Assembly: GCA_021647625.1 (NCBI GenBank)
Contig: JAKIUJ010000013.1
Span: 1-40,730, forward strand
DNA: 40,730 nucleotides
Source of the DNA: Desulfobacula sp.
Lineage (GTDB): Bacteria > Desulfobacterota > Desulfobacteria > Desulfobacterales > Desulfobacteraceae
Reading direction: 5' to 3'
The position numbers and the translations under genes are program-made. The notes beneath the pieces are model-generated. The model did not search any database. It saw only the letters and a program-made list of their open reading frames with translations, and was not told the DNA's origin. This document shows, piece by piece, positions 10,996-33,643 of the stretch (positions within the stretch are counted from its first letter, which is position 1; the number at the start of each line of letters is the position of its first letter).

Positions 10996-11001
10996 TTCTA
11001 T

Positions 11002-11038
11002 AAAAAAATCCTCCGGTGGAATTATTCACAGGAGGATT
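11002..11038 (-). terminator. Terminator shared by prfC and ppdK
   Basis: AATCCTCC (11007-11014) and GGAGGATT (11031-11038) form an 8-bp stem with an inner GTG/CAC pairing. On the minus strand it is followed by seven T, giving a standard rho-independent terminator for prfC. On the plus strand the tail is weaker (AAAAGATTTT), but it may also stop ppdK. Confidence 0.75.
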
Positions 11039-11057
11039 AAAAGATTTTGCTGCCCGC

Positions 11058-11073
11058 TAACGGCCATGCGCAG
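11058..11073 (-). repeat. Third copy of the 16-bp end of the 84-bp repeat
   Basis: The reverse complement, CTGCGCATGGCCGTTA, is identical to 5955-5970 and 6039-6054. It lies between the ppdK/prfC terminator and the prfC stop. It may mark the core of a dispersed palindromic repeat family. Confidence 0.6.
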
Positions 11074-11098
11074 CCTTGATTCTCCCCATTTTATACAT

Positions 11099-14610: not shown

Positions 14611-14868
14611 ATGAAATCCATAACCATACATGGTCTTGATGAACCGTTGTGGTCCCTTGTAAAATCTAAAGCCGAGTTCGAGGGACTGAGTTTAAATAAA
14701 ACCATAAAGAAATTGTTGGAAAAAGCATTAGGAATCTCACATTACGAAGAAAGCAATCGAAAAAATGAATTTCAAGAGTTCTCAGGTTGTTGGTCGAAAA
14801 AAGACCTTGAAGAATTTAATGACACTATTATAGAAACTGAACAGATTGATACTGGTGACTGGAAATGA
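14611..14868 (+). CDS. Antitoxin of a VapBC module (FitA/RHH-like)
   Basis: The 85-residue protein starts MKSITIHGLDEPLWSLVKSK and continues AEFEGLSLNKTIKKLLEKALG, a ribbon-helix-helix pattern with a strand followed by two helices. The C-terminal part (FSGCWSKKDLEEFNDTI, acidic end) is typical of a flexible toxin-neutralising tail; the F-x-G-x-W-x(5)-L-E-E-F pattern recurs in antitoxins of this kind. AAGGAG lies 8 bases before the ATG. The stop overlaps the PIN toxin start by four bases. It is divergent from the other VapBC module, with which it shares a 268-base regulatory region. Confidence 0.85.
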   Translation: MKSITIHGLDEPLWSLVKSKAEFEGLSLNKTIKKLLEKALGISHYEESNRKNEFQEFSGCWSKKDLEEFNDTIIETEQIDTGDWK

Positions 14869-15272
14869 AAAGGATTCTTTTAGATACAAACGCCTATACA
14901 GCATTAATGTTAGGAAATGACGAAATTCTTAATTTTTTATCGGTTTCTGAAATAATTTATATTTCTATTTTTGTTATGGCAGAACTCTTAGCCGGTTTTA
15001 AAGGCGGGGAAAAAGAATCTGACAATTGTAAAATTTTTGAAACTTTTTTAAAAAAGCCTGGTGTAAAAATATTAAATGGAACTAAAGAAACTGCGCAAGT
15101 ATTTGCATTTATAAAAAACTCACTAAAAAAGAAAGGTCTACCTATACCCATAAATGATGTTTGGATAGCATCCCATACAATTGAAAGCGGATCAATTTTG
15201 ATCAGTTGTGACAAACATTTTGATTCAGTTGATGGGTTAAGACTTATTAAATTTCTAAATTTGCACAAATAA
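14865..15272 (+). CDS. PIN-domain toxin (VapC-like)
   Basis: A 135-residue PIN-domain ribonuclease. LLDTNAYTALMLG carries the first Asp, SIFVMAELLAGFKGG the conserved Glu of the AEL motif, PINDVWIASHTIESG the third Asp, and LISCDKHFDSVDGL the last. The motifs are in the order and spacing of VapC/FitB toxins. ATGA overlap with the antitoxin gene suggests coupled translation. The cognate antitoxin is immediately upstream; the first 40 residues do not resemble those of the other two PIN proteins in the window, so the three modules look independent rather than recent duplicates. Confidence 0.88.
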   Translation: MKRILLDTNAYTALMLGNDEILNFLSVSEIIYISIFVMAELLAGFKGGEKESDNCKIFETFLKKPGVKILNGTKETAQVFAFIKNSLKKKGLPIPINDVWIASHTIESGSILISCDKHFDSVDGLRLIKFLNLHK

Positions 15273-17175: not shown

Positions 17176-17191
17176 TGGCATCATCATTGCA
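17176..17191 (+). promoter_or_regulatory. Sigma-54-type (-24/-12) promoter of the PEP-CTERM gene
   Basis: TGGCATCATCATTGCA has GG (17177-17178) and GC (17189-17190) separated by exactly ten bases, with TGGCA and TTGCA matching the RpoN consensus. It ends 51 bases before the ATG at 17243. PEP-CTERM genes in other bacteria are controlled by RpoN with the PrsK/PrsR two-component pair, so the match is functionally plausible. No activator site was identified. Confidence 0.65.
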
Positions 17192-17242
17192 TTGATATAT
17201 TTTCAGTTTTTAACTTTAATCTTAAAAAAGAGGAATTCACTT

Positions 17243-18127
17243 ATGAAATTTTTACGGTTTTTATTACTCTCAACATTTTTAGTACTGTTTACAAGCGCAG
17301 CCCATGCATTGCCATTTGGTATCGCACTTGGAGGCGATGGTGTGCTCAATACAGATTCAGGCGGTGATGGCTATGTAACCGAAATTGATTACTCTAGTTA
17401 TGGCATAGTTGATTTATCTATCACTAGCCTGGTTTCTAATACTGCTTCTGGTACATTCAAAGAAACCGCACTTATAAAAATTGGCGCGGATGAGTTTGGT
17501 GTATTCTCCCCTGAAATGACTATCGTGATGAGTGGCATGGGTGATTTTACCGCTGACTTTATTGGTGGAGACATTGGTGACCAGGATTTTAAATTTACTA
17601 GTGGTTCTATCTCAATTTACATCGACGACTATATTACTTCAGGCACGACTTCGAAGTGGGCAACAATCGATGCAACTGATGGTTCACTTTACGGTGCAGA
17701 CGATGGGGACTTAGTTGCAGTATTTGATATTGCCAATGGTAACGGAAGTTTACAATTAACTCCGGGTGAGACAGATAATGTAGATATCTGGAGTTTAAGT
17801 ACCGATGTATTAGAGTCCGGTTACTTTTTCTTTAAGGATTTAGGTGACTTTGCAGACGTCTCAGATATCCTGAACGGAATTTTTGTACAAATGTATACCA
17901 ACGACACCAATGAAGTACTGACAGATTTAGAAATTATTGCTAATCTTGAAGCAGAATTTGCTGAGAATGGTGTAATGACGGATGCTGGCGAAGATGCTAT
18001 TAGAGTCTATATCGAATCTGAAGGTTCTGCTGAATTCAATGTTGTTCCTGAACCAGGTACAATGATCCTTTTCGGAATCGGACTTTTGGGATTTGCCAGA
18101 GTTAGCAGAAGAAAATTTAACGCCTAA
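17243..18127 (+). CDS. Secreted PEP-CTERM-domain protein
   Basis: The 294-residue protein has a signal peptide (MKFLRFLLLSTFLVLFTSAA, cleavage likely after AHA) and a mature region with many Gly, Asp, Ser and Thr and few Lys or Cys. A C-terminal sorting signal starts at VPEPGTM, followed by the helix ILFGIGLLGFA and a basic end SRRKF. Exosortase (EpsH/XrtA) is expected to cleave at the PEP motif and release or attach the protein outside the cell, often with glycosylation. I chose ATG 17243 because AGAGGA precedes it; an earlier in-frame start at 17192 would put 17 residues before the signal peptide. It is solitary, behind a sigma-54-like promoter and before a strong terminator. The mature domain has no recognised fold. 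Confidence 0.92.
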   Translation: MKFLRFLLLSTFLVLFTSAAHALPFGIALGGDGVLNTDSGGDGYVTEIDYSSYGIVDLSITSLVSNTASGTFKETALIKIGADEFGVFSPEMTIVMSGMGDFTADFIGGDIGDQDFKFTSGSISIYIDDYITSGTTSKWATIDATDGSLYGADDGDLVAVFDIANGNGSLQLTPGETDNVDIWSLSTDVLESGYFFFKDLGDFADVSDILNGIFVQMYTNDTNEVLTDLEIIANLEAEFAENGVMTDAGEDAIRVYIESEGSAEFNVVPEPGTMILFGIGLLGFARVSRRKFNA

Positions 18128-18211: not shown

Positions 18212-20263
18212 TTATTTTTTAATATCTTCTCGAATCAATGTAGTGTGATCCTGTCGCAGTGTCCTACAATGAATTTTATCAGAATGACCAAATCTAAATA
18301 GCATAATTTGATTCCTGTTCGGTTCCTTACCTACCAAATGAAAAAGTTCTTTGTAGTTTTTCTCTATTTTGTTCAAAATCTTTTGATGCTTCAATTGAAA
18401 ATCACGTTCTCGATTCAATGCCACCCTTTGATAAAAGAGTGTAATTGCAGTCATGGGCTGCATCGCAAGGCCAAGAGAGGCTAAGGTTAACCAAACACGC
18501 TCCAACGCTCTTCCTCCGTTTATCATATCTTGGACTTCTGATCCATCAATGGTTAAAAGCGCAACCCCGGAAGAATGAGTAATTCCTTGATATGAATGTC
18601 GTGCCACCATTTTGCCTATACCGATTTTATTAATGATATTCATCACGGTCCATTGTTTTGTCATCTTTAAAAACAATTCGCCAATCAATCCGGCTTCAAG
18701 ATTTTTTAAGGGTAGCCCATCCCGATATTCCAATGCTTCTTCATCCGTAAACCGAATCATACTCATTAAATGCTCATGCAATGGCCTGTGTTCATTCCGA
18801 ATTTGATCAATTTGATAAATTATATTGGCTATTTTTTTTAAATCATTCTTATCTGTAACAACATGAAGCTTTGCTCCCTGTATTGTCTTTGTACTTGCCA
18901 AAACTTTGCTAAGTGTTGCGGATAAAATGGATCGTCTCTCATACAATTTTCTATTTGTATGTCTTTTCCAAATATAATCAGATAAATTGTCTTTTTCTAT
19001 TCCTTTGCAGCTAAACTTTACAGATATTACCAAATTGCCATTTTTAGAAAAAACATCTTCAATAGTAGACCCAATTCCTAATGATGAGGCTGCAATAACA
19101 ATATTCTCAACGACAGCACCACATGAAATTTGAGAAGCGATTTGATTAACATTAAAAAAGGATAAATCTTTGTCATGAACAAGATATAGATCAATCTGGT
19201 TTGTTAAAATTTCAAATTTCCATGGTTGGGCATTGTCTCCGGAAGGAGCTTGAATCCCTGCAGTAATCAGATATTCAAGGACTGATTTTGAAATCATATC
19301 GCCGGCTTTAAAATTGACATTTGGTTTTACCGGCCTTTGAGTTTTATATACCGATTTATTTTTTTTTAAAATAATTTTAATAATTTTCATCTTGACTGCT
19401 TGAATTGGATTTTTATTACCCATAATCAAATAGCCTTTACATAACTTACTTAAATAAGGATCATATTGGAGATAACTTGGAACAGGTCGTAATTTCCCCC
19501 TTTTCAATACAATCTTGAGCACCTCGGTTGCGGCAAAGCCAGCACAAATCTGGCATGCACTGTTCAATGAAGGACCTGCCTTAGATTGAAGATCAACTTT
19601 TTTTAAATCCATATATTTAATATGTGTTGGTTTAGGGGCAAGCCCAATAGCAAAAGAAAGATATTTATCTTCATCCGTCATACCTTCTTTTATATTAAAA
19701 TATTCATCAAATCCCATTCCATTAGGCGAAAAAACCAACAACGCAGAACTAAACCCCATAGGTCCTGCCGTTATCACGTAAATACCCTTCTCAGCAGCCT
19801 TTTTAAACAATAACCTTCTGATATCAAACTTGAAAAAATCCAATCCATCAACGACAACATCAACGTCTTCAAGAAACTTATCAATATTTGATTCATTAAT
19901 TCCTTCACTAAACATTGAAAATTCAATAAATGGATTAATTGAAAAAGCATCCTCTTTCATTACATCAAGTTTGGGTTTACCAAGATTCTGAACTCGAGCA
20001 CCATACTGACGATTAATATTAGCGGCCTCAAAATGATCAAAATCGGCTATGTTAAATTTACAAATACCTGTTCGCGCAAGTGTGATTAGATGCACGCCGC
20101 CAACGCCACCCATTCCGGGTATAGCCACTCGAACATCTGAAATTTTTTGTTGTTCCTCAATTGTTAAAAGGCCAATATTCCTTGAAAAGGCTTGATTTAT
20201 ATATTCAACTTTATTGGAGATTCCGAAATTAGTCAAAATTTTGAACATGGCACTTAATTTCAT
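18212..20263 (-). CDS. E1-like (ThiF/MoeB) adenylyltransferase fused to a nitroreductase domain
   Basis: The 683-residue protein has two enzymatic halves. Residues about 25-300 are an E1/ThiF domain: RVAIPGMGGVGGVHLITLAR is the ATP-binding loop, ADFDHFEAANINRQYG the Asp and Asn-x-x-Arg-Gln motif, and SACQICAGFAATEVLKI the later segment. Residues about 320-683 are nitroreductase-like: AGIQAPSGDNAQPWKFEI, GIGSTIEDVF and LASLGLAMQPMTAITLFYQR suit FMN binding. E1 domains adenylate a carboxylate; nitroreductases reduce or oxidise bound substrates. Fusions of this type occur in mycobacteria (Rv1355c-like). AGGAG precedes the ATG, 10 bases after the RND gene, so the two form an operon. Neither the substrate nor a ubiquitin-like partner is visible. 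Confidence 0.88.
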   Translation of the reverse strand: MKLSAMFKILTNFGISNKVEYINQAFSRNIGLLTIEEQQKISDVRVAIPGMGGVGGVHLITLARTGICKFNIADFDHFEAANINRQYGARVQNLGKPKLDVMKEDAFSINPFIEFSMFSEGINESNIDKFLEDVDVVVDGLDFFKFDIRRLLFKKAAEKGIYVITAGPMGFSSALLVFSPNGMGFDEYFNIKEGMTDEDKYLSFAIGLAPKPTHIKYMDLKKVDLQSKAGPSLNSACQICAGFAATEVLKIVLKRGKLRPVPSYLQYDPYLSKLCKGYLIMGNKNPIQAVKMKIIKIILKKNKSVYKTQRPVKPNVNFKAGDMISKSVLEYLITAGIQAPSGDNAQPWKFEILTNQIDLYLVHDKDLSFFNVNQIASQISCGAVVENIVIAASSLGIGSTIEDVFSKNGNLVISVKFSCKGIEKDNLSDYIWKRHTNRKLYERRSILSATLSKVLASTKTIQGAKLHVVTDKNDLKKIANIIYQIDQIRNEHRPLHEHLMSMIRFTDEEALEYRDGLPLKNLEAGLIGELFLKMTKQWTVMNIINKIGIGKMVARHSYQGITHSSGVALLTIDGSEVQDMINGGRALERVWLTLASLGLAMQPMTAITLFYQRVALNRERDFQLKHQKILNKIEKNYKELFHLVGKEPNRNQIMLFRFGHSDKIHCRTLRQDHTTLIREDIKK

Positions 20264-20273
20264 ACGTATTCTC

Positions 20274-22541
20274 CTAATGTTTTGCTGTCTTCATATCAAA
20301 ATTTAAAAAAAATAATGCCATTGAAGGGAGAATTAACAAATCTCCAATCACAGCAGCCACCATAATTATTGAAGTGAGTGCTCCAAAGTTAATGGTGGGT
20401 ACAAATCGACTAAAAATCATCACCCCAAAACCAATTGCTAAAATCACAGAGGACAAAAGAATCGCCTTTCCTTTATAATGTATCGTATCTACAATTGCTT
20501 CTTCCACATCTTTTCCCTGATCAAGGTTCCATCTAAATTCCGAAAGAAAATGAATGGTATCATCAACAGCAATTCCAATAGCCACCGCAGCAATAATTGC
20601 AGTAGCAGTATTTAATGGAATTCCAAAAAGCCCCATAATCCCGAAATTAAAAACAATTGGAAATATATTTGGAACAATGCTTAGCATTCCTAAAGGAACG
20701 GATCTTAACACAAAAAACATAATAAGAATGATAATTACAACTGCAGCAGAAAGACTGTAAATTTGTCCTGCAACAAGTGCATCTATAGTATTCACATCCT
20801 GTAGAGCTCTTCCACTAATTCTTATTTCAATATCATTGCTTTGGAATTGTTTAACATAATTTGAAATTGATGAAATAATTTTTGCTTGTGCTCTTGTTGA
20901 ATGCTCTGATAATCGCAATGAAATTCTTGCGCGGTCAAACATGCTATTTATGAAATCATTAATATCCTCAGAATCATAGAGAAGAAGATATTGTGAAATA
21001 AGGGCTTTGGATTTTGGAATTTTATAGTACTCAATTTCTTCATTGTTAAATGATTGGTTTATATCTTTTATAAAATCAACGAACGACAAACTTTTATCAA
21101 CACCTTTAATTGTGCTGGAAAAAGTTTGTATGCTTTGAATTATTTCTAAATTCTTCGGATACTTAAATCCTTCTTTTGTAGTGGATTTTAAAATTATATC
21201 GAGAGTACTGATACCAGCCAAATTCTCCTCAATAAAATCGATTGCAATTTTAACCTCATCTTTCTTTTTGAAATAATCAAGAAGATTGGTTTCAATTTTA
21301 ATGGTTGAAGAAAACCAACAGGAAATAATGATAATTAAAACACTAATAGCGCAAATAGACTTATATTCATGAGTAACAATAGTTCCTATTTTTTTTAAAA
21401 ATATGGTAATCGTCTTATTTTCATTTTTATTAAAAAATATTTTTCGTTCATCAAAAAGAAGTAATAAAGGTGGTAAAAACAAAAATGAAAAAAAGAATTC
21501 AAAAAGCATCCCTAAAGAAGCAACCAGAGCAAAATCTTTTATAGGTGGAATCTCACTGAGGTATAACGAAAAAAATCCAATGGCTGTGGTGAGAGTCGTC
21601 AAAAGACATGGCTTGAATACTTTCTTTAAGATATGGGCTAATGCATTTTCTTTTGATTTAAATTCTATTAGACACTCTGAATTCAAATATGAAAAAATAT
21701 GAATAGTATCACACAGGGCTAAGGCCATAACGACAGGTGGAACTATTGTTGTGACGTTATTTAACGTGATGTCAAAAAGGGGAAATAACCCCATTGTAGA
21801 CCCCATACAAATACTCACATTTAATAGCGCCAGCAAAGTAAGCCAAAGATTTTTAAAAAAGAAAAATACTGCTATTGTAATAAAGAAATAGGTTACTGGA
21901 ATAAATGTACGAATATCATCTTTCATATATTGGCTAAGATAATAATTAGTTGAGGTCCAGCCAGCCATATATACTTTCCCGGTGTTTTCAGAATACTTTT
22001 GTAAGATTACCTTACTTTTTTCTATAATTTTCTTTCGATATTCAGGTACATCGGGTTTGTCATATACTGAAACAACGATAGCGACAGTTTCTCCATCATT
22101 GGATATGAAATTATCAATATATAAAGGATTAGATAATGCGCTAATTTTCAGTTTATTTATATCCTCTTGGTGCTCTGGTATTGTTTCAAGAAATTTTTGA
22201 ACAATAAAGAATTCATCCTCGCCAATGATATCATTCACATTAGCTATGCTTTTGATTTGTCTTATTCCACTAATTTGATTAAGATCATCAGTAATCTGCT
22301 TTAATATTGCAAGATTTTCCGGCTTAAAAATATTCTTATTTTTATAGGCAATTATGAAAAATTCATCATTGCCAAAAATTTTTCTTATTTCATCATAAAA
22401 TTCCAAATCAGGATCATCTTCGATAGTAAAATAATCCACATTATCGACAGTTTTAATCTTAGGAAGATTTATTAAAAAAGGTATCGATACAATAAGGGAA
22501 AGGATCAAAAAGAAAATTTTATTATCAATTATCTTATTCAT
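20274..22541 (-). CDS. RND/MMPL-family membrane transporter
   Basis: The 755-residue protein begins with a membrane helix (IFFLILSLIVSIPFLINLP). It has two large periplasmic domains and two five-helix bundles, for example FIPVTYFFITIAVFFFFKNL and IIILIMFFVLRSVPLGMLSI. Conserved RND motifs such as AVAIGIAVDDTIHFLSEFRW near residue 665 and ALALCDTIHIFSYL near 275 have the proton-relay aspartates of MMPL/hopanoid-type transporters. Such proteins export lipids, glycolipids or lipopeptides from the inner membrane. The gene heads a minus-strand operon with the E1-nitroreductase fusion and is divergent from the LuxI-like acyltransferase. It has no partner membrane-fusion or outer-membrane protein here, in line with the MMPL type. 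Export of the neighbours' product is an inference. Confidence 0.9.
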   Translation of the reverse strand: MNKIIDNKIFFLILSLIVSIPFLINLPKIKTVDNVDYFTIEDDPDLEFYDEIRKIFGNDEFFIIAYKNKNIFKPENLAILKQITDDLNQISGIRQIKSIANVNDIIGEDEFFIVQKFLETIPEHQEDINKLKISALSNPLYIDNFISNDGETVAIVVSVYDKPDVPEYRKKIIEKSKVILQKYSENTGKVYMAGWTSTNYYLSQYMKDDIRTFIPVTYFFITIAVFFFFKNLWLTLLALLNVSICMGSTMGLFPLFDITLNNVTTIVPPVVMALALCDTIHIFSYLNSECLIEFKSKENALAHILKKVFKPCLLTTLTTAIGFFSLYLSEIPPIKDFALVASLGMLFEFFFSFLFLPPLLLLFDERKIFFNKNENKTITIFLKKIGTIVTHEYKSICAISVLIIIISCWFSSTIKIETNLLDYFKKKDEVKIAIDFIEENLAGISTLDIILKSTTKEGFKYPKNLEIIQSIQTFSSTIKGVDKSLSFVDFIKDINQSFNNEEIEYYKIPKSKALISQYLLLYDSEDINDFINSMFDRARISLRLSEHSTRAQAKIISSISNYVKQFQSNDIEIRISGRALQDVNTIDALVAGQIYSLSAAVVIIILIMFFVLRSVPLGMLSIVPNIFPIVFNFGIMGLFGIPLNTATAIIAAVAIGIAVDDTIHFLSEFRWNLDQGKDVEEAIVDTIHYKGKAILLSSVILAIGFGVMIFSRFVPTINFGALTSIIMVAAVIGDLLILPSMALFFLNFDMKTAKH

Positions 22542-22577
22542 AAATCACTGCGGCTTATAGTCATTGGCTTAAACATC

Positions 22578-22607
22578 TTGACAAACAAGTTATAAAAATA
22601 AATTATA
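22578..22607 (+). promoter_or_regulatory. Possible promoter of the acyltransferase gene
   Basis: TTGACA (22578-22583) is followed after 17-18 bases by AATTATA (22601-22607), in the 125-base divergent gap and about 60 bases before the start at 22667. The -35 box is perfect and the -10 box weak. Confidence 0.35.
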
Positions 22608-22666
22608 GATCATAATCTTTTAACGAATATATCAAATAGAGTCAATTCTAAACAGGACTAATTTCA

Positions 22667-23416
22667 ATGATCAGCAATAGTATCAGTTATGGAAAATTCA
22701 GATTTGGTTTAGTTCAGAACAAAGATGTACTCAACGATACGTTTCGTATGAGACATGAAGTCTATGTGGAAGAATTTGGATTTGAGAGAAGAGAAGACCA
22801 TCAAAATGGTCTTGAAACCGATGAATATGAAAACGATTCCATCCACTTTGCCTGCCTGAATGAAAGCGATTCTGTTGTTGGAACCATAAGGCTGGTATTG
22901 AATTCAGACAAAGGACTGCCCATTGAGCATGCGGTCAAGACAACCTTTATCGGTAAAAAACCAGACAAATCAAAAATTAGTGAAATTTCAAGACTGACCG
23001 TGAGCCGGGATCTTCGACGAAGGAAAGAAGACGGGATGTATGGTGTTGAATCTTATCTTATGAAAAAAGAAGGGGGAATTTTACCCGATGACGGATCAAT
23101 TCCCGATGAAATGTCCGGAAGAAAAAATCCTATCATCGTGTTAGGGCTTTACCAGGTTCTGTACCATGAGAGCAAAAGGCGTGGGATCAGTCACTGGTAT
23201 ATGATCACTGAAAAAAAACTTTTCTATGCTCTTAAAAAATATGGATTTCTTTTCCATCAGATAGGCGATCCGGTTGAATACCATGGTGAAAGAATACCTT
23301 ATCTTGGAATAATACAGGAAATAGAAAAAACCTTAGCAAAAAACAACCCTGACATGCTTAAAATCATGCTGACCGGGCTTGAGAAAGAGTATCATCCTTC
23401 CTGTTTTGAGATTTAA
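22667..23416 (+). CDS. PEP-CTERM/exosortase-associated acyltransferase (LuxI-like fold)
   Basis: The 249-residue protein resembles the exosortase-associated acyltransferase family, which is related to LuxI autoinducer synthases. TFRMRHEVYVEEFGFE (about 26-41) matches the R-x(3)-(F/Y)-V motif with the conserved Arg and Glu, SIHFACLNESDSVVGTIRL the acyl-CoA/ACP binding strand, and SEISRLTVS (about 105) the E-x-S-R signature. The predicted role is transfer of an acyl group to an amino acid, sugar or similar acceptor; no member has been fully assigned to my knowledge. It is divergent from the RND/E1 operon, and its 3' end overlaps the FeeM-like gene by 53 bases on opposite strands. Confidence 0.88.
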   Translation: MISNSISYGKFRFGLVQNKDVLNDTFRMRHEVYVEEFGFERREDHQNGLETDEYENDSIHFACLNESDSVVGTIRLVLNSDKGLPIEHAVKTTFIGKKPDKSKISEISRLTVSRDLRRRKEDGMYGVESYLMKKEGGILPDDGSIPDEMSGRKNPIIVLGLYQVLYHESKRRGISHWYMITEKKLFYALKKYGFLFHQIGDPVEYHGERIPYLGIIQEIEKTLAKNNPDMLKIMLTGLEKEYHPSCFEI

Positions 23417-24230
23417 AGCCATACAAATATTCAAGCGTTTCCAATAATTTTTTATCAATGGAAAAATATTGATCCAGCAGGATAATGGAAGTTGAATTCT
23501 CAGTAAAAAAGAAATGATATAAATTGTTTTTCTTGTTTATATTCTTGTATGCTTTTTTATAGTTTTTTTTCATTTCCCTGAGATCAAGCCGCATGGCCAA
23601 AGCAGGATTATTATTGGCATATGAATATTCTTTAATCTCTCCAATTTTTTCAAACAAGAGCAAATCTTTATAAATCCACTCGTGTTTAGGATGAATGGCA
23701 ATAACAATATCATCAGCATTAAGATGCCTTGAAGCATATTGATGAAGTATCTTATTTCCCAGCATGGGAATGTTCATGGTGTTCATTTTAAATGCCGGGT
23801 CGGCAGCCAGATGGCCGGCTTCAACAATAAATCTTCCCCGTGACCGCAATAAATCCAACTCCTTTTTAAACACCATATCCATGGGTAGGCCAGTATCAGA
23901 ATCCGGAAATATACTGATGGAATATATCAGTTTATTAATATTGTCATCTTTATGAGTTCCGATAAAAATTCTTGAATCTCTGTTGCAGTGTTGAGGAGCC
24001 AGCCGGAATGGTGTTTTGCAGGGTTTTGTGTAACCTGTTTTGACAAAGACCTTGTAAACCAGGTTAAAAGCAGAAAGATAATCTTCAGGAGTTGCCGCCG
24101 TTCTGAAAATAATATTATCCATGTTCAATTTGATCGCAGGAAGCAGATATCGCAAGAATTTTAATTTTAAATTTCGGGGCAGTATTTTATATATTTTTCG
24201 TTTAAAAAAATTCTTATTAATTTTGCTCAT
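23364..24230 (-). CDS. FeeM-like N-acyl amino acid synthase (GNAT fold)
   Basis: The protein of 288 residues is similar in pattern to FeeM N-acyl-tyrosine synthases and N-acyl amino acid synthases. IIFRTAATPEDYLSAFNLVY begins the domain, KVFVKTGYTKPC and FRLAPQHCN follow, then SISIFPDSDTGLPMDMVFKK and VEAGHLAADP, in place of LuxI's E-x-S-R. FeeM-type enzymes join a fatty acyl group from acyl carrier protein to an amino acid's amino group. The ATG at 24230 is preferred over GTG at 24245; neither has a clear ribosome-binding site, and a later Met at residue 37 could also serve. The last 17 codons overlap the opposite-strand acyltransferase gene. Confidence 0.75.
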   Translation of the reverse strand: MSKINKNFFKRKIYKILPRNLKLKFLRYLLPAIKLNMDNIIFRTAATPEDYLSAFNLVYKVFVKTGYTKPCKTPFRLAPQHCNRDSRIFIGTHKDDNINKLIYSISIFPDSDTGLPMDMVFKKELDLLRSRGRFIVEAGHLAADPAFKMNTMNIPMLGNKILHQYASRHLNADDIVIAIHPKHEWIYKDLLLFEKIGEIKEYSYANNNPALAMRLDLREMKKNYKKAYKNINKKNNLYHFFFTENSTSIILLDQYFSIDKKLLETLEYLYGFKSQNRKDDTLSQARSA

Positions 24231-24289
24231 CACACTGATTATCACAGATGAATTATTTTTACCACTTGGTTTTTTTCACCGTTAAATAT

Positions 24290-24685
24290 CTACTCCCAGT
24301 CAGTTAATCTGAGTCCTGTGATCCGGCAAAATTCACCGGTATTATGAGTTACAAGAATGACATTATGAGCGCGTGCTATCGCTGCAATCAGCATATCATT
24401 AGGTCCGATCAGGTTGCCTTGTGCAGTCAGGTCTGCTCGAATGAGCCCGTATTCATCCGCACTGCGATCATCAAACGGCAAACTCTGTAAAGGGGAAAAG
24501 AAAAACTGTAAACGTTGAAGATTCGCATCAATTCTCTGACTGTTTCTTGCTCCAAAAAACAGTTCTGCTTTCACAATACTGCATAGTGCAATTTCGAAAG
24601 GTGAATGGGATCGAAAATTTTGCTCAATTGCACCATTCCCACCATTAAGCAGATTAATGCAAATATTACTATCTAATAAATACAT
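24290..24685 (-). CDS. vapC: PIN-domain toxin (VapC)
   Basis: The 131-residue protein begins MYLLDSNICINLLNG, the VapC start with its first catalytic Asp. IVKAELFFGARNS contains the conserved Glu (K-A-E-L-x-x-G-A), GPNDMLIAAIARAHNVILVTHN has the third Asp and the final N/D position. A C-terminal tail, LRLTDWE, matches the VapC consensus L-x-x-x-x-W. It is expected to cleave tRNA-fMet or another RNA in the anticodon or sarcin-ricin region. The antitoxin gene ends one base upstream. Codon use looks less AT-biased than the surrounding genes, which would suit horizontal transfer. Confidence 0.92.
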   Translation of the reverse strand: MYLLDSNICINLLNGGNGAIEQNFRSHSPFEIALCSIVKAELFFGARNSQRIDANLQRLQFFFSPLQSLPFDDRSADEYGLIRADLTAQGNLIGPNDMLIAAIARAHNVILVTHNTGEFCRITGLRLTDWE

Positions 24686-28078: not shown

Positions 28079-29167
28079 CTATTGCTCGGATATCCTTTCC
28101 CATACCTCTATATATTGGTTAATCATTTTATCCATTGAAAATTTTTTCATAACCTTTTTCCTTGCTTCCCTACCATGAAGTTTTCTTTTATCGGTATTAT
28201 GACAATAATCAAGTATGATACTTGCCAAGCCCTCTGAATCTCCGGGTTCAAAAAGACGTCCAGTAATGCCATCTTCAACAAGTTCGGGGTTTCCACCGAC
28301 ATTGGATGCAATAACTGGTATAGCTGTTGCCATGGCTTCAAGTATAGTGTTAGATATTCCCTCATTCAAAGATGACAAGACAAAAACATCAAGTGTCTGT
28401 AATAATTTAGGAATATCACGTCTATTTCCCAGAAAACTAATGCCTATACCAGCATTATTTTCGAGTTTCTCTCTTTCAGGTCCATCGCCAATCACAAGCA
28501 GTTCAACATCGGGTATTGCTTTTATAACAATCTGAAAAGCTGTAAAAAGAGTTGAATGGTCTTTGATCGGATCAAGGCGCCCTACAATACCTATTAACAC
28601 TCTATTTGCGCTCTCATTTGTATCTGAAGGTCTGTAACGATCAAAATCTATGCCATTGTAAATCTGTGTGATAGGTTTTTTCACACTAATATCATTTTTC
28701 AGCCATTGTACCATCTGTTTTGAAACGCAGGTATATTCTTTTGTAAAAAAAGATATGAGCCGCCTGATTATTACTCTTTTCCATTGCAAGCCATTAGTAT
28801 CAATCACCCCCCATCCATGCTCTCCATGAACGACACCTGAAATCCCGGCAAGGCGTGCCGCAAGAACACCATCCAACCCCCCCCAGTTTCTGGTATGAAC
28901 CACATCAGGATTTAGATCCTTCAAAATTTTTGCAAGCTTAAAAATGAAACGAATGGAATTTCCGTCAGGTTTTTCTAATGAGAGTACCTTAGTACCAGCT
29001 GGCAGTAGTTCTTCTGATCTTCCGGTTTTTGTGATACAAAGAATAATATGCTCATATTCACAGCTTGTAGCCTGAACCAGAGAAGCAATACCTTTCTCCA
29101 TTCCTCCCGTAGAAAATGAATGCAGAATATGAACCACACATTTTTTTTCCCCCACACTCAAGACCAT
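28079..29167 (-). CDS. GT4 glycosyltransferase (exosortase/PEP-CTERM-associated type)
   Basis: A 362-residue GT-B enzyme that adds a sugar from a nucleotide-sugar donor to a lipid-linked glycan on the cytoplasmic face. VVHILHSFSTGGMEKGIASL at the N-terminus is the acceptor-side loop typical of the PEP-CTERM-system sugar transferase family. VHTRNWGGLDGVLAARLAG follows. GIVGRLDPIKDHSTLFTAF and SSLNEGISNTILEAMATAIP (about 275-294) hold the GT4 E-x(7)-E motif that binds the donor. It lies between the asnB-like gene and the split secreted protein in the minus-strand cluster. The donor sugar cannot be told from the sequence. Confidence 0.9.
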   Translation of the reverse strand: MVLSVGEKKCVVHILHSFSTGGMEKGIASLVQATSCEYEHIILCITKTGRSEELLPAGTKVLSLEKPDGNSIRFIFKLAKILKDLNPDVVHTRNWGGLDGVLAARLAGISGVVHGEHGWGVIDTNGLQWKRVIIRRLISFFTKEYTCVSKQMVQWLKNDISVKKPITQIYNGIDFDRYRPSDTNESANRVLIGIVGRLDPIKDHSTLFTAFQIVIKAIPDVELLVIGDGPEREKLENNAGIGISFLGNRRDIPKLLQTLDVFVLSSLNEGISNTILEAMATAIPVIASNVGGNPELVEDGITGRLFEPGDSEGLASIILDYCHNTDKRKLHGREARKKVMKKFSMDKMINQYIEVWERISEQ

Positions 29168-29214
29168 TGATTAACTCTAAAATTCATTTATTCTCATATT
29201 GTTTTTCTACATCA

Positions 29215-31155
29215 CTACTCGACAAATCGTTTATGCCACAAGTTAAACATCATAATAATCCACAACTCAGTTGACCAGTTTCTAATCCCTCGTTGATGCT
29301 CTTTCCATATTTTTTCCAAATGGGAAATATTCAAATAGGTTTTACTCGCGTTGCCTTCAAGTACAAGCTCCTGAGTGTAACCTTTCAACTCACCTTTCAT
29401 CCATTCTAAAATTGGGACACCAAAACCCATTTTCTTTCTATATAAAATATCATCAGGCAACAATTTCTTTAAAGATTTCTTAAATATGTGTTTACCTTCA
29501 AGACCCTTTAATTTCATTTTTGATGGAATCTTGGCCGCGTATTCCATAAACACATGATCAAGTATTGGGCACCTTACTTCAAGGGAAACTGCCATACTGG
29601 CCCTGTCAACCTTGGTTAGGATATCTTCACATAAATATGTTTTAATATCCAGATATTGAATCTTGGACAAGTGATCATTTGCAGGTGCATTGTCATAAAT
29701 TTTTTTAAAAAGATCAAAGGTTTGATATTTATTGATCTCACGAAGTGTATCGGAATTAAAAAATTGTTTTTTATCCATATCATGGACAGCACACACTGAA
29801 AAATAATAGGCACCTATTGGATCACGGGCCACATTTGAAAGAAATGCTTTTCCCCTGAAAATCTGGGGAAGATAATCAGCTTTAGGGTATAATTTCCCCA
29901 GAAGACCAAAAATCGGTTGTCGCAACATGGCCGGCACAAAATTTCTCACCATATTCTCACGCATATCCATATAATACCTGCGATACCCTGCAAAATTTTC
30001 ATCCCCTCCATCACCTGACAAAGAAACAGTAACCTTTTCTCTAGCCATTTTTGAAACATAATAGGTCGGCACAGATGATGAGTCTGCAAAGGGTTCATCA
30101 TAATGCCAGGCCAATTTCTCAATAATGGGGATAGCCTTTGGGGTCACCTGAAACTCATTATGGCTGGTTTTATATAATTCGGCAATTTGCCTGGCATATT
30201 CAGCTTCATTATAACTTGCTTCACTAAATGAAATAGAATTGGTAATGACCGGTTCATCACTTGCACCTGCCATCATTGCCACAATTGCAGAAGAATCAAC
30301 ACCACCTGAAAGAAAAGCGCCCAACGGCACCTCACTTATCATCCTGATACGTGTTGCCTCATCAAGGATATCCTGCAGATCTCTAATAATTGTGTTTTCG
30401 GTAAGATTGTTATCAGGATAAAATGATAAATCCCAATAGGGAGTTATAGTCAGCTTATCTTTGGTCAAAACTGCATAATTAGCAGCAGGTAGTTTATGAA
30501 TAGATTTAAAAATTGTTTTGGGCGCAGGAACATACAGCAATGAAAAATAATCCGATAAAGAGGTTAAATCCAAAGTTTTATCAATTCCGGGAACTTCAAG
30601 AATTGCTTTTATCTCTGAGCCAAAGATAAAACGCCCTTTATCAAAATGATAGTATAATGGCTTTTTTCCCAAACGGTCTCTGGCGATGAATAATTTTTCT
30701 TTTTTTTCATCCCATATTGCAAATGCAAACATTCCTCGAAACCGTTTAACTGATTCTTCCCCCCATTCTTCATATGCATGAATTATAGTTTCAGTGTCAC
30801 AATTAGTTTTAAAAACATGGCCTTTGCTTTCCAGTTCTTTTTTTAAAACCTGAAAATTATATACTTCACCATTGAACGTAATCCAGATGGACCCATCTTC
30901 ATTTGAGAGAGGCTGTTGACCTGACTCAAGGTCAATAATACTAAGACGTCTATGACCAAATCCGATATTTCCACAGCCGTTGGATAATTTTAACGGGAAA
31001 TCAGGGGTCACCTGCTTTCCAAATGAAATATTTTTATTAATATAATATCCTTCTTCATCAGGCCCGCGATGAATTAGGCTACGAGTCATTCGAACCAGCA
31101 AATTCAAATCGATTTCATGCTTATCCAGATGAACTATTCCTGCTATTCCACACAA
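29215..31155 (-). CDS. AsnB-type class II glutamine amidotransferase (exosortase-associated)
   Basis: The 646-residue protein starts MCGIAGIVHLD, so Cys2 is the N-terminal glutaminase nucleophile. HRGPDEEGYY, GFGHRRLSIID and WITFNGEVYNF complete that domain. The C-terminal synthetase domain has the PP-loop SGGVDSSAIVAMMAG (about 266) and SLSGDGGDENFAGYRRYY. Asparagine-synthetase homologues of this size are standard members of exosortase A polysaccharide loci, where they are thought to amidate a uronic acid or other sugar carboxylate rather than aspartate. It is 13 bases downstream of the GT4 gene at 31169. The start is fixed by the need for Cys at position 2. Confidence 0.93.
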   Translation of the reverse strand: MCGIAGIVHLDKHEIDLNLLVRMTRSLIHRGPDEEGYYINKNISFGKQVTPDFPLKLSNGCGNIGFGHRRLSIIDLESGQQPLSNEDGSIWITFNGEVYNFQVLKKELESKGHVFKTNCDTETIIHAYEEWGEESVKRFRGMFAFAIWDEKKEKLFIARDRLGKKPLYYHFDKGRFIFGSEIKAILEVPGIDKTLDLTSLSDYFSLLYVPAPKTIFKSIHKLPAANYAVLTKDKLTITPYWDLSFYPDNNLTENTIIRDLQDILDEATRIRMISEVPLGAFLSGGVDSSAIVAMMAGASDEPVITNSISFSEASYNEAEYARQIAELYKTSHNEFQVTPKAIPIIEKLAWHYDEPFADSSSVPTYYVSKMAREKVTVSLSGDGGDENFAGYRRYYMDMRENMVRNFVPAMLRQPIFGLLGKLYPKADYLPQIFRGKAFLSNVARDPIGAYYFSVCAVHDMDKKQFFNSDTLREINKYQTFDLFKKIYDNAPANDHLSKIQYLDIKTYLCEDILTKVDRASMAVSLEVRCPILDHVFMEYAAKIPSKMKLKGLEGKHIFKKSLKKLLPDDILYRKKMGFGVPILEWMKGELKGYTQELVLEGNASKTYLNISHLEKIWKEHQRGIRNWSTELWIIMMFNLWHKRFVE

Positions 31156-31168
31156 AATATAATACCCC

Positions 31169-32380
31169 TCATAGATTTTTTTTAAATTTGTATATTGTTC
31201 TAATAAATATCTCTTTTATTTCAATCGCAACTTTATTCCAAGATCGTTTGGAAATGGGAGGAGTAACAATATTAAACTTTCTATTATCCCTAAAAGCGTT
31301 CAATAAACCTTTAGCAATACTTTGGGGTGTTCGTTCAACCAGATAACCATGGTCAATCGATGTAATAATTTCTTGAGCTGCCCCGGCATCAGTTGTGACA
31401 ACAGGAGTTTCACAGGCCAGTGATTCCATAATGACATTGGCCCATCCTTCCTTTGCACTTGCCAAGCAAAAAACATCAGCTGCGTTATACCATGTCTTTA
31501 AGCTTTCATTAGGAACAATCCCAACCATACTGACATTATTTTGTAAACTATTATTACAAATCATCGCATTCAGCTCAATTCGATTATCACCATCCCCAAC
31601 AATATAATAATGGACATCCGGAATTTCTTTTATAACTATTGACAAGGCTTCTATCACAAGATGAAATCCCTTGTTACGTGTTAAAGAACCGATTGATAGA
31701 ATGACCTTTTTATCTGAGGAAATCCCTAATAGATTCCTACATTTATACATCGATACTTTATGGAATAATTCTTCATCAACACCATTAGGAACAACCGAAA
31801 TTTTGTCTTTTTTAGCACCCAACTGGATCATTTTGTCTTTTAATGTGTCACACACTGAGATAATATGGTTTGATTCTTTAAGAACAGCTTTAATTAAATA
31901 TTCGATCAGCTGATTCTCTGGAAAGGTATGAATATCAGACCCCCTTGCGGAAACGCATACTGGGAGCTTCAACATTCGGCCGACTAAAACAGATGCAAAA
32001 CCATCAGGATAAATAAAATGCCCGTCAATAATATCAAATTGATGCTTTTTATTAAGTCTTTTTATAAGTTTCAGGCTAAAAAAAAACATGGAAAATCCTT
32101 GAAACGGCATGCTGATTTTAGGCAGCAAAAGATATCGAGGGTGAAAAACTTCAACACCATCAATTATTTCAAACTTTGGCATATGTGCAAAGTAAGTCCA
32201 TTTTTTTAAAAATCGCCACTTTGGACAATATGGTATAGGAGCAACAACAATAATATTACAACCATCCAGGTTCTTAAAGGCACCCATTCTTTTCTTAATA
32301 AAAACCCCGAAATTGAGATCCAAAGAATTTGGAAAGAGGCTTGTATAAACCAGGACATTCATTCTATTTCTTAATTTCAC
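31169..32380 (-). CDS. GT4 family glycosyltransferase
   Basis: The 403-residue protein begins with the GT-B N-terminal fold MNVLVYTSLFPNSLDLNFGV, then DIIDGHFIYPDGFASVLVGR and VCVSARGSDIHTFPE. The C-terminal half has ILSIGSLTRNKGFHLVIEAL and SAKEGWANVIMESLACETPV with the donor-binding E-x(7)-E. It is related to TuaC-like and other GT4 enzymes in capsule and teichuronic-type pathways. The frame opens with GTG at 32380, 3 bases after the ligase stop; ATG at 32362 (residue 7) is an equally likely start because it begins right at the conserved strand. Cytoplasmic or peripheral membrane. Donor unknown. Confidence 0.9.
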   Translation of the reverse strand: MKLRNRMNVLVYTSLFPNSLDLNFGVFIKKRMGAFKNLDGCNIIVVAPIPYCPKWRFLKKWTYFAHMPKFEIIDGVEVFHPRYLLLPKISMPFQGFSMFFFSLKLIKRLNKKHQFDIIDGHFIYPDGFASVLVGRMLKLPVCVSARGSDIHTFPENQLIEYLIKAVLKESNHIISVCDTLKDKMIQLGAKKDKISVVPNGVDEELFHKVSMYKCRNLLGISSDKKVILSIGSLTRNKGFHLVIEALSIVIKEIPDVHYYIVGDGDNRIELNAMICNNSLQNNVSMVGIVPNESLKTWYNAADVFCLASAKEGWANVIMESLACETPVVTTDAGAAQEIITSIDHGYLVERTPQSIAKGLLNAFRDNRKFNIVTPPISKRSWNKVAIEIKEIFIRTIYKFKKNL

Positions 32381-32383
32381 AAT

Positions 32384-33643
32384 TTACCCATTTTGCTGCA
32401 TAGCAAGCAGGTCCTTTTTTACAATTTCTTTTACAATTAACACAATGGCCATCAGCTGATATGGTAAATCCCAATAAGCAAGGCCAAGAAAGGCACCGCC
32501 AACTGCATACCCAACGAAACTGATTTCGATCATTTTGATTAGCTGATTAGCCCAATATAGTGTTGTAATATTTTTTGTATACCTGTTAATCCATCTAATA
32601 TTTCTCCAGGTTAAAAAACCCAGGGTCAAAAACAATAAAAGTCCGACATAACCCTGCTCACCAAGCACTTCAAAATAAATACTGTGAGCATCATGATAAT
32701 CAGTTGGATTAGGAGCATACTGAGTAAATAAATAGGGTGTGAATACTTGAAACCCTCCACCAACAAATGGCCGTTCTTTTGTTAAATTCAAGGCAAACTG
32801 CCAGGCATTCAACCTGCCCATTGCAGAGGCATCTTCCTCATATGTTTCAATAGTTTTCATTTTGTCAAAATATTGTTCAGGCATAAAAGATAAAGATATA
32901 AAAAGTATAATCGCCAGAATAAAACCATACAGAATTTTTCGATTACTCTTCAACCATAAAAAAACAACAATTGCACCTCCTGCAAGAAAAGCACCCCTTG
33001 AATGGGTCCCAATGATAGCAAAAAATGATAAGATTAATGCAAGCATCAATCCGTAGTTAATCCATCGATTAACTGAAATCAGTCTTAGGTAATTTATTAA
33101 TGGTAAAGCCATAACCATTGCCAAACCAATCTCGGTATTTCCAGAAATAAAGCTGTGAGGAGGCCCTGTAACCATCCATTGTCCACCAGTCCTTAAGGTA
33201 AAAAGACCGCCCTTTACTGCAAAAAAGCCTAACGACAGGCAAATGACCCAAACCAGTCTGTTAACTTTTTTCATATCTGTTATTAAAAAAATCGTAATAA
33301 CTGTCATGAACTGTATTTTAAGTGTTCTTTGAAGATCGACAACGCTATCCACAGGATTAAGAGCTAAATAAGTCGTAAAGCACATCCAGAGAATAAACAA
33401 TACCCAAATCACTGTTGTTAAATTCAATATTACTTGCTTTTTTCCCTTATAAAAAGGGATAGCAGCTATTGTCAATACAACTGTAATCAAAGACAAAGGT
33501 GCTGAATTAAAAGCACCCCAAGTCAATCTATGCGGATTCATATATGCTAACCAAGACCAAACATAAATACCATTATACGGCCTAAGCAGCACGCTTGGAA
33601 AAGCGATTAACAAAATACTTGCTAATATAATATCTCTGATCAT
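32384..33643 (-). CDS. O-antigen ligase/Wzy-like polymerase (exosortase A-associated type)
   Basis: A polytopic protein of 419 residues with about ten hydrophobic segments. The N-terminus, MIRDIILASILLIAFPSVLL, RPYNGIYVWSWLAYMNPHRL, is highly typical of the putative O-glycosylation ligase of exosortase A loci. The Wzy_C-like region has IIGTHSRGAFLAGG (about 205) and a large periplasmic loop with GRLNAWQFALNLTKERPFVG and YHDAHSIYFEVLGEQGYVG. Conserved Arg and His in these parts fit glycan transfer from undecaprenyl diphosphate. The role is polymerisation of the polysaccharide or its transfer to protein at the periplasmic face. The PEP-CTERM protein at 17243 could be an acceptor; that is speculation. 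Confidence 0.9.
   Translation of the reverse strand: MIRDIILASILLIAFPSVLLRPYNGIYVWSWLAYMNPHRLTWGAFNSAPLSLITVVLTIAAIPFYKGKKQVILNLTTVIWVLFILWMCFTTYLALNPVDSVVDLQRTLKIQFMTVITIFLITDMKKVNRLVWVICLSLGFFAVKGGLFTLRTGGQWMVTGPPHSFISGNTEIGLAMVMALPLINYLRLISVNRWINYGLMLALILSFFAIIGTHSRGAFLAGGAIVVFLWLKSNRKILYGFILAIILFISLSFMPEQYFDKMKTIETYEEDASAMGRLNAWQFALNLTKERPFVGGGFQVFTPYLFTQYAPNPTDYHDAHSIYFEVLGEQGYVGLLLFLTLGFLTWRNIRWINRYTKNITTLYWANQLIKMIEISFVGYAVGGAFLGLAYWDLPYQLMAIVLIVKEIVKKDLLAMQQNG

Follow-up and report, generated by a model that had tools for sequence, protein, structure and literature searches.

What is made, and where is it sent, by a locus in which an E1-like enzyme, an MMPL transporter and two acyltransferases stand beside exopolysaccharide genes? 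The window (the whole 40,730-nucleotide stretch of Desulfobacula sp. analysed here) was checked for ORFs, and all four genes named in a first-pass annotation were found where it had placed them, with Pfam and TIGR matches bearing out their identities: a ThiF (E1-like)-nitroreductase/FDO fusion of OxzB/TrzS-like architecture (18212..20263, minus strand, 683 aa; Pfam ThiF 5.3e-45, nitroreductase 1.5e-12), an MMPL/RND (HAE3-like) transporter and putative acyl-amino-acid exporter (20274..22541, minus strand, 755 aa; Pfam MMPL 7.1e-35), a PEP-CTERM/exosortase-associated acyltransferase of the N-acyl-amino-acid-synthase (NAS) type (22667..23416, plus strand; TIGR03694 exosort_acyl, 172.4 bits against a cut-off of 111.95) and a FeeM-type N-acyl amino acid synthase (23364..24245, minus strand; PF21926, 3.1e-33). 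The coordinates agree with the proposed operon of fusion and MMPL genes (gap of 10 bases) and with the divergence of the MMPL and exosort_acyl genes, between which lies a divergent promoter region of 125 bp (22542..22666). The two acyltransferase genes, described as tail to tail, are convergent but go further than that, since their 3' ends overlap by 53 bases in ORF coordinates; they lie 2.4 and 3.1 kb from the fusion gene, neither directly adjacent to it. A gene absent from the earlier annotation, for a PEP-CTERM surface protein like PepA (flocculation), stands end to end with the fusion gene (17192..18127, plus strand; PF07589 2.3e-8; likely ATG at 17243) and is preceded by a sigma-54 (-24/-12) promoter-like site, TGGCATCATCATTGCA (17176..17191, plus strand). 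The expected exosortase-type polysaccharide locus was also present nearby: exosortase-A-type exopolysaccharide genes (28079..33643, minus strand) comprise a TIGR03088-like glycosyltransferase (GT), a TIGR03108-like amidotransferase (809.7 bits, cut-off 816.9), a further GT and an O-glycosylation ligase (TIGR03097, 472.8 bits, cut-off 188.1), the last being the only one of the set over its cut-off. Exosortase itself (PF09721) was not found in the window's MAG (92.9% complete) and was present in 14 of 17 genomes checked, those without it being the window's genome, one same-genus relative and one same-phylum genome.

Pfam ThiF (residues 27-271) and nitroreductase (318-360) domains follow each other in one chain of the fusion. 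The protein scored 1024.6 bits against PRK14851 (curated cut-off 1170) and 289 bits against the Rv1355c/TrzS family model (curated cut-off 476); being below both cut-offs, it is treated as a relative sharing the TrzS architecture and not as a proven ortholog. Its E1 adenylation site (GxGGVGG, Asp, Asn/Arg/Gln, Lys, second Asp) is intact; G50, G52-G56, D74, D76, N82, N84, R85, Q86, K98, D139 and D142 were invariant in 20 aligned sequences, and from the alignment of D142 with the second Asp of the ThiF DCTD motif we infer that it is the equivalent of TrzS D217. An AlphaFold model of the fusion (pLDDT 85) matched ThiF, Acg (2ymv, TM 0.77 by target), AclA and the peptide-acting E1 enzymes PaaA and MccB, the closest ThiF fold being AclA of Tenacibaculum. 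Judged from sequence, the fusion has the architecture of an acyl-oxazolone synthetase (OxzB, TrzS), and cyclisation and desaturation activity is predicted. The window and one set of related loci supplied the sequences for the MMPL, NAS and ThiF HMMs; an NAS gene lay within 4 kb of ThiF, or was fused to it, in 47 of 80 ThiF loci, which are the best 80 of 210 matches and are related to each other, so that p-values from this sample are nominal. GNAT-ThiF fusions occurred in L050-L053, with nitroreductase in the same chain in three and missing from one. The cultured sulfate reducer Desulfovibrio (Nitratidesulfovibrio) vulgaris encodes a single 989-aa protein made up of FeeM-like, ThiF and nitroreductase parts; its gene belongs to an XrtA polysaccharide locus and has PEP-CTERM genes next to it, an arrangement that the present comparison adds as new. 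By their family matches, both GNAT genes of the window are NAS types. The FeeM-type gene scored 115.2 bits against PF21926 (cut-off 27; profile positions 2-158 of 158), and its protein matched PDB FeeM 2g0b (5.6e-8) and positions 25-233 of the PRK14852 triple-domain model (9.7e-30). For the other gene, described as LuxI-like, a quorum-signal synthase was set aside: the exosort_acyl cut-off was passed, the Autoind_synth match was weaker, and no mark of a signal synthase was seen in this gene, an NAS-type gene tied to the transporter. The exosort_acyl family was reportedly recognised as an NAS family by Craig et al. in 2011.

The first-pass annotation knew of no described pathway with this set, a statement that does not hold for the core. 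An acyltransferase, ThiF and nitroreductase form the known acyl-oxazolone pathway of OxzAB, TyzACB and TrzAS, as described, with chemistry measured on characterised relatives, in PMC10404671 and PMC12856293, and have been proposed for stieleriacines by comparative genomics (PMC12479983); since fusion architecture and NAS genes match the characterised systems, the core chemistry is already known. TrzAS (Rv1356c/Rv1355c, with M. smegmatis and R. jostii homologues) is described in PMC12856293 as an acyltransferase and a ThiF-FDO fusion, the fusion having its domains in the same order as the window's; unlike TrzAS, the window has a fusion below the family cut-off (289 of 476 bits), a sulfate-reducer host, an MMPL gene in the operon and adjoining PEP-CTERM/exosortase-type genes. 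OxzAB of Pseudoalteromonas rubra (de Rond et al. 2021) is likened to the window by its description in PMC10404671 and PMC12856293, as an acyltransferase with a ThiF-nitroreductase fusion, the oxazolone synthetase. TyzACB of M. tuberculosis likewise has NAS, ThiF and nitroreductase, but as three separate proteins, and mmpL9 next door is a possible exporter according to its authors (PMC10404671); the mmpL link is there a one-species remark, whereas here a pair co-occurs in several genera of the host's order. Clusters for stieleriacine, thalassotalic acid and kyonggic acid hold NAS, ThiF and nitroreductase genes (PMC12479983, PMC7293339), and the S. maiorica cluster includes, like the window, a PEP-CTERM gene; unlike the window, these clusters belong to Planctomycetes and proteobacteria (PMC12479983, PMC7293339), and the words MMPL, transporter, RND and export are absent from the main text of PMC12479983. 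A link of NAS to the PEP-CTERM/exosortase system is also in print: Craig et al. 2011, as quoted in PMC7293339, PMC4897644 and PMC11072679, placed NAS beside PEP-CTERM genes, as in the window, and unlike the window the quoted passages include no ThiF-nitroreductase, MMPL or swappable cassettes.

We consider it probable (at roughly two in three) that the locus serves to produce and export a derivative of an N-acyl amino acid within an exosortase-A/PEP-CTERM exopolysaccharide system, the product, its export and the electron acceptor being predictions. By family, the exosort_acyl and/or FeeM-type synthase would acylate an amino acid, in all likelihood tyrosine, with a fatty acyl chain; the ThiF domain, given its homology to TrzS/OxzB and its intact adenylation site, would adenylate the carboxylate and cyclise the molecule to an oxazolone; and the FMN nitroreductase domain would desaturate the Calpha-Cbeta bond. 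Synteny and fold suggest that the MMPL protein would carry the product across the inner membrane, and the conserved neighbourhood that the product may act outside with the PepA-like PEP-CTERM protein, building a cell-bound matrix. It speaks against this reading that nitroreductase-type desaturases characterised so far need O2; since the host, which has dsrA, is a sulfate reducer, the acceptor would be something other than O2, or the step would run only on O2 traces. The scheme of the first-pass annotation, with the E1 domain activating a newly made acyl amino acid, the nitroreductase modifying it and the RND protein exporting it, fits this evidence, its core belonging to the pathway already described.

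The neighbourhoods of related MMPL genes were compared at 24 places, with cassette labels taken from single-sequence searches and classes read by eye. On this footing the tailoring cassette was ThiF at 13 places (one of them, L225, resting on a weak 141-bit match), a ligase/reductase at 4 and a p-cresol/vanillyl-oxidase-like flavoprotein at 4, with none at 3 (L222, L224, L226); the three kinds never coexisted at any place, and L220 was counted with two MMPL genes sharing one ThiF gene. The swapped partners are an oxazolone synthetase or ThiF alone, a ligase/reductase/PP-loop set, or the flavoprotein, and an unscanned 550-aa ORF, not ThiF, stands directly behind the MMPL gene of L227. Conservation of all four genes as neighbours, on which the first-pass annotation had staked its proposal, was found only in part: the complete set occurred at just 3 of 24 MMPL places, and a tight four-gene unit was rejected, but an NAS-type gene lay within 8 kb of MMPL at 16 of the 21 places uncut by a contig end, the fusion being present at only some of those 16. 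Sequence comparison shows that, of all pairs in the related loci sampled from the host's order, MMPL and NAS stay together most constantly, and that the tailoring partner is swapped. Cassettes change on the MMPL tree, including within a sister pair (support 100/100), yet are clustered on it (12 changes against a shuffled mean of 16; 0 of 200 shuffles as low), and as far as this tree tells, cassettes are truly exchanged, though under some constraint. Among the 24 MMPL genes, three that are only 37-38% identical to the window's and branch apart may be paralogs. A swappable place for the ring-making part beside a dedicated pump appears to be new. The cassette protein of L192 matched 4-cresol dehydrogenase (5.4e-79), eugenol oxidase (1.8e-62) and vanillyl-alcohol oxidase (3.7e-59), enzymes of 4-hydroxyphenyl compounds, and a flavoprotein of this kind hints at a tyrosine head group of the lipid. 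The same comparison bears on a less likely alternative, that two lipids are made: MMPL would export the exosort_acyl product, and the fusion would draw on the FeeM product alone, which would stay in the cell, the operon merely co-expressing the two. It would account for MMPL/exosort_acyl pairs with no fusion found inside 8 kb (L189-L193, L229), for the match of the FeeM domain, and not of exosort_acyl, to the PRK14852 part joined to ThiF-nitroreductase, and for tryptazolones being commoner inside cells with acyl-Trp mainly in the supernatant, as described in PMC12856293; against it, L187 and L219 carry the fusion and exosort_acyl but lack FeeM over the 8 kb examined, L189 has FeeM and no fusion in that range, as does L193, truncated on one side by a contig end, and exosort_acyl-type genes directly precede ThiF genes in L065, L077, L095 and L096.

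The MMPL gene scored 121 bits against PF03176 (cut-off 20.5) and 200 bits against HAE3 TIGR00921, under the curated cut-off of 351.9, and is for that reason called HAE3-like only; the AlphaFold model of its protein matched MmpL5, MmpL4 and MmpL3 (TM 0.68-0.78 by query, among the Foldseek matches listed). Among 58 genomes, MMPL matches of 49-67% identity were found in 10 besides the window's own (next best 32%), and exosort_acyl was present in 11/11 genomes with an MMPL match against 3/47 without (Fisher 1.6e-9), a closer co-occurrence than that of MMPL and fusion (2.7e-4); MMPL and exosort_acyl have one such match each per genome, and at 11 of the 24 MMPL places the two genes diverge from each other at a distance of no more than 700 bp. 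MMPL was within 4 kb of ThiF in just 11 of the 80 ThiF loci (best 80 of 210), and the ThiF-adjacent MMPL proteins of alpha-, beta- or gammaproteobacteria (L075, L082, L090, L100) are 22-25% identical to the window's. By these comparisons the transporter is MmpL-type and has a closer link to the exosortase-type NAS than it has to the fusion, which is new here. A partnership of MMPL specific to the oxazolone enzyme is weakened by the MMPL loci without ThiF and by the tighter co-occurrence with exosort_acyl. We think it unlikely that MMPL exports another envelope lipid (e.g. a hopanoid or an exopolysaccharide precursor lipid) and that its pairing with NAS is co-regulation of envelope genes; its sequence does also resemble HpnN and general HAE3 transporters, and 5 of the 21 uncut MMPL places had no NAS within 8 kb (L220 twice, L222, L224, L227), but the genome co-occurrence and the divergent pairing of genes with single matches speak against it.

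The last step of the preferred reading, action beside a PepA-like protein, draws on the neighbours of ThiF. The window's PEP-CTERM protein matched NF033554 floc_PepA over its full length at 71.4 bits and is named PepA-like because the cut-off of 80 was missed. With PEP-CTERM labelled by a regular expression devised for this analysis, such a gene was within 4 kb in 51 of the 80 ThiF loci (best 80 of 210), and of the PEP-CTERM ORFs counted, 55 were at most 4 kb from ThiF and 3 at a distance of 4-10 kb (nominal p 1e-15); a superseded count with a stricter gene caller recovered ThiF at 73 of 80 loci and a PEP-CTERM neighbour, again up to 4 kb away, at 43. The PepA model matched 38 of 56 ThiF-neighbour PEP-CTERM proteins against 2 of 20 same-group controls (13 from the window's genome, 7 from four others) and 2 of 24 taxon-matched controls from the genomes of eight named loci (30 loci taken, 4 without usable ORF, 2 dropped as ThiF neighbours), both sets being high-scoring motif matches and not random. 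The nearness of PEP-CTERM genes to ThiF and the PepA matches of their products are likewise new here. When the window protein, minus its C-terminal signal, was used in an iterative search, none of the controls and just 12 of the 55 neighbours joined; the evidence for PepA likeness is therefore the NCBIfam model. The sigma-54 site, 67 bp before the PEP-CTERM ATG, was the best (11/12 positions) of 6 window sites with at least 10/12, where shuffling expects 3.5; sites of at least 10/12 preceded 48 of 55 ThiF-adjacent PEP-CTERM genes against 1.6% of shuffles. They were also seen at 14 of 20 control PEP-CTERM genes, which makes them a general PEP-CTERM feature, and Haft (2006) is said to have reported them as such. 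No site of at least 10/12 was found in the 125-bp MMPL/exosort_acyl region; across loci, ThiF had 1/80 (best 80 of 210), MMPL 0/16, exosort_acyl 5/34 and FeeM 2/29, and sigma-54 control of the whole unit was set aside on the ThiF and MMPL counts. That ThiF activates the C-terminus of a protein or peptide (ubiquitin-like or PEP-CTERM related) and the nitroreductase modifies that peptide, as with MccB and PaaA, is very improbable, for although the folds of these two enzymes and the nearby PEP-CTERM genes would suit it, export signals seem to belong to PEP-CTERM proteins with no sign of one on ThiF-nitroreductase, the fusions seen join ThiF to acyltransferases, and characterised homologues act on N-acyl amino acids as described in PMC12856293.

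Two questions meet at this locus, the role of NAS in the PEP-CTERM/exosortase system and the purpose of acyl-oxazolones, whose function PMC12856293 calls a major unresolved question. In the comparison both are tied to one protein type, the flocculation-type PepA, and to a single transporter within one bacterial order; D. vulgaris emerges as a cultured sulfate reducer with a fused enzyme. If the preferred reading is true, oxazolone-type lipids would build or modify matrix rather than serve only as antibiotics or signals, and anaerobes would make them by a desaturation that cannot simply use O2. A bolder reading, which we regard as rather improbable, is that in exosortase/PEP-CTERM carriers a dedicated MMPL pump and interchangeable tailoring enzymes deliver N-acyl-tyrosine lipids of a reactive kind (oxazolone, aldehyde or oxidised phenol) to the far side of the inner membrane, there to react with PepA-type PEP-CTERM proteins or polysaccharide and lipid-anchor them; if true, this would explain both why NAS belong to the PEP-CTERM system and what oxazolones are for.

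Open reading frames and profile matches bore out the four genes that the first-pass annotation had placed in the window, as well as its neighbouring exosortase-type polysaccharide locus, the exosortase-A-type genes of which lie at 28–34 kb. The MMPL/RND gene (20274–22541, minus strand) is followed after a 10-base gap by the ThiF-nitroreductase fusion gene (18212–20263, minus strand, 683 aa) and diverges across 125 bp from the exosortase-associated acyltransferase gene (22667–23416; TIGR03694, 172.4 bits, cut-off 111.95), whose 3' end overlaps the FeeM-type N-acyl amino acid synthase (NAS) gene (23364–24245) by 53 bases. Beyond the fusion, and facing it, lies a PEP-CTERM gene (17192–18127); immediately before it stands the sigma-54 site that scored highest in the window. 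The window also holds three PIN-domain genes (13693–14103, 14865–15272 and 24290–24685), the last adjoining the FeeM gene and exceeding the VapC cut-off, and ends with a KamA-family radical SAM aminomutase-like gene (39558–40730) after ATP-grasp-like and GNAT/FemAB-like genes.

The fusion protein scored 1025 bits against PRK14851 and 289 bits against the Rv1355c family, both under cut-off. Its adenylation site is intact (G50, G52–G56, D74, D76, N82, N84, R85, Q86, K98, D139 and D142 invariant in an alignment of 20 sequences), D142 being aligned to the second Asp in the DCTD motif of ThiF. The AlphaFold model (pLDDT 85, pTM 0.62) matched AclA, PaaA, ThiF and MccB, and also the mycobacterial FMN protein Acg (2ymv). 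Among solved structures, the fold nearest to the ThiF domain was 9egb, the AclA protein from Tenacibaculum discolor, which is of ThiF type and was solved together with its substrate; a literature search for a paper on AclA returned nothing. The window FeeM protein matches positions 25–233 of PRK14852, and in Nitratidesulfovibrio (Desulfovibrio) vulgaris DP4 a plasmid-encoded protein of 989 aa matches the same model over its full length (2396.7 bits, 1–989); a Rosetta-stone fusion of acyltransferase, ThiF and nitroreductase exists. Its gene (L259, plasmid NC_008741, 13092–16061) adjoins two PEP-CTERM genes of the THxN family, within an XrtA polysaccharide locus carried by the plasmid; the arrangement on the strain L2 plasmid is as in DP4, and the strain RCH1 record is the third with the gene. 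DP4 is a sulfate reducer.

Among 58 genomes, the window MMPL protein was matched at 49–67% identity in 10 others, clearly apart from the next best match (32%), and TIGR03694 was found in 14, with one copy each. TIGR03694 was present in 11/11 MMPL genomes (the window's own included) versus 3/47 others (Fisher 1.6e-9; 8/8 versus 1/18 inside the genus), and the ThiF-nitroreductase fusion in 6/11 (one broken) versus 2/47 (p 2.7e-4), so the transporter's link with the acyltransferase is closer than its link with the enzyme of oxazolone formation. The MMPL model (pLDDT 85, pTM 0.78) matched MmpL5, MmpL4 and MmpL3 (TM 0.68–0.78 by query). In M. tuberculosis, the tyz genes are flanked by mmpL9, which the authors of PMC10404671 suggest could move the product.

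Sampling of 389 genomes from the order gave 24 MMPL places in 21 genomes (E <= 1e-150), of which three MMPL genes (37–38% identity, apart on the tree) may be paralogs; tailoring cassettes were assigned by hand from a neighbourhood table. A ThiF gene lay within 5 kb at 13/24 places (including a weak match of 141 bits at L225), and at 7 of these it immediately follows the MMPL gene in the same orientation; at L220, a single ThiF gene counts for both MMPL genes. The ThiF genes of L220 and L228 are without a nitroreductase part, and these loci, with L203 and L204, are among the MMPL loci of the phylum at which no such part is labelled beside ThiF. Four places carry, as a set, a WbuX-like PP-loop protein, an AMP ligase and a thioester reductase (L193 is truncated where its contig ends). 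Four others have a flavoprotein, L222, L224 and L226 have none of the three kinds, and the kinds never co-occurred (0/24). On well-supported branches of the MMPL tree (31 rows), labels changed at least six times for ThiF-nitroreductase, four for the flavoprotein and two for the ligase set, and L219 (ThiF-nitroreductase) and L188 (flavoprotein) are sisters (100/100, short branches); even so, labels were clustered (12 changes in total versus a shuffled mean of 16; 0/200 as low). In one genome the ThiF-nitroreductase gene (L067, 1428–3505; the G013:C210 stretch) is disrupted by frameshifts and internal stop codons. A further MMPL locus of that genome, L193, carries the ligase/reductase cassette and stands near L189 of another species on the MMPL tree, which suggests whole-locus transfer and replacement. 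At L227, a 550-aa ORF (10489–12138) with a nucleotide-binding-like N-terminus overlaps the end of the MMPL gene and may encode a tailoring enzyme unlike the other three kinds. The proposed four-gene neighbourhood held in part: a NAS-type gene was within 8 kb at 16 of the 21 MMPL places that have no contig end closer than 200 bp, but all four genes stood together at just 3/24, namely the window, L044 and L043, the last apparently from the same-genus relative G002 (match coordinates identical). A PEP-CTERM gene was within 8 kb at 21/24.

The flavoproteins beside MMPL (L188, 1117–2730; L192, 7071–8684; L221, 3420–5009; L229, 12051–13670) are like p-cresol methylhydroxylase and vanillyl-alcohol oxidase; that of L192 matches 4-cresol dehydrogenase (5.4e-79), eugenol oxidase (1.8e-62) and vanillyl-alcohol oxidase (3.7e-59), that of L188 is 41% identical to it, and the other two were detected by similarity to it. 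Since these three enzymes act on 4-hydroxyphenyl compounds, the cassette fits a tyrosine head group, possibly with action on the phenol ring of N-acyl-tyrosine, and offers O2-independent oxidation; such bacteria may, however, also degrade phenols.

Around 80 ThiF loci (the best 80 of 210 matches, from Desulfobacterales, beta-, gamma- and alphaproteobacteria, Planctomycetota and others), a PEP-CTERM ORF lay within 4 kb in 51 (42/54 with full 4-kb flanks), with 55 such ORFs within 4 kb versus 3 at 4–10 kb (nominal p 1e-15); at 15 of these loci NAS was absent from the stretch examined. The flocculation PepA model was matched (E <= 1e-10) by 38/56 ThiF-adjacent PEP-CTERM proteins, versus 2/20 others from the window's and related genomes and 2/24 from genomes of eight of the 80 loci; the 56 include the protein of the window, which scores 71 bits where 80 are required, and the L187 neighbour gave no match to this model. 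Sigma-54 sites preceded 48/55 ThiF-adjacent PEP-CTERM genes and 14/20 control PEP-CTERM genes too, in agreement with Haft 2006 as far as its available text goes, and sites of at least 10/12 preceded 1/80 ThiF and 0/16 MMPL genes. Such sites were also seen before 5/34 exosort_acyl-type genes at the ThiF loci L042–L121 (0.6% in shuffles). PMC9850573 describes PepA as a protein of floc formation: when overexpressed, it moves polysaccharide from soluble to bound, and its gene requires sigma-54. In Aestuariicella, one gene (L069, 16341–17630) joins a NAS-like GNAT domain to a cyclic-nucleotide-binding domain of CRP type; it lies 4.4 kb away from a ThiF-nitroreductase gene, and a cyclic nucleotide may control acyl-amino-acid synthesis directly.

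Two elements are known already. The oxazolone-type gene set was first described as OxzAB in de Rond 2021, as cited in available passages of later oxazolone papers; the TyzACB product is C12:0-tyrazolone (PMC10404671, available part), and the same set was proposed for thalassotalic acids, kyonggic acids and stieleriacines (PMC12479983). NAS genes beside PEP-CTERM genes go back to Craig 2011, as quoted in the available part of PMC7293339, where the stieleriacine cluster is also noted to contain a PEP-CTERM gene; in the accessible text of PMC11072679, a Methylomonas NAS-family gene is one of three with disruptants reported different in polysaccharide-band formation. Literature searches for these terms in combination turned up the oxazolone and NAS papers; the words PEP-CTERM and exosortase are absent from the main texts of PMC10404671 and PMC12479983, and these and MMPL from that of PMC12856293. 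In the literature surveyed (most subscription papers, including Craig 2011 and de Rond 2021, outside coverage), we found no description of MMPL and NAS as a recurring unit, of cassettes that replace one another, or of ThiF and PepA as neighbours in general.

Enzymes of this type that have been characterised depend on O2, while the host, represented by a MAG, carries the sulfate-reduction gene dsrA (dissimilatory sulfite reductase; 589 bits, cut-off 392.85). We infer all chemical steps in this organism; gene content, residues, folds and co-occurrence were observed. The best supported reading is an acyl-oxazolone pathway in which the acyltransferase would form N-acyl-tyrosine or similar, the ThiF domain would close the oxazolone ring, the flavin domain would desaturate it, and the MMPL protein would export the product, which would work in the PepA/polysaccharide matrix.
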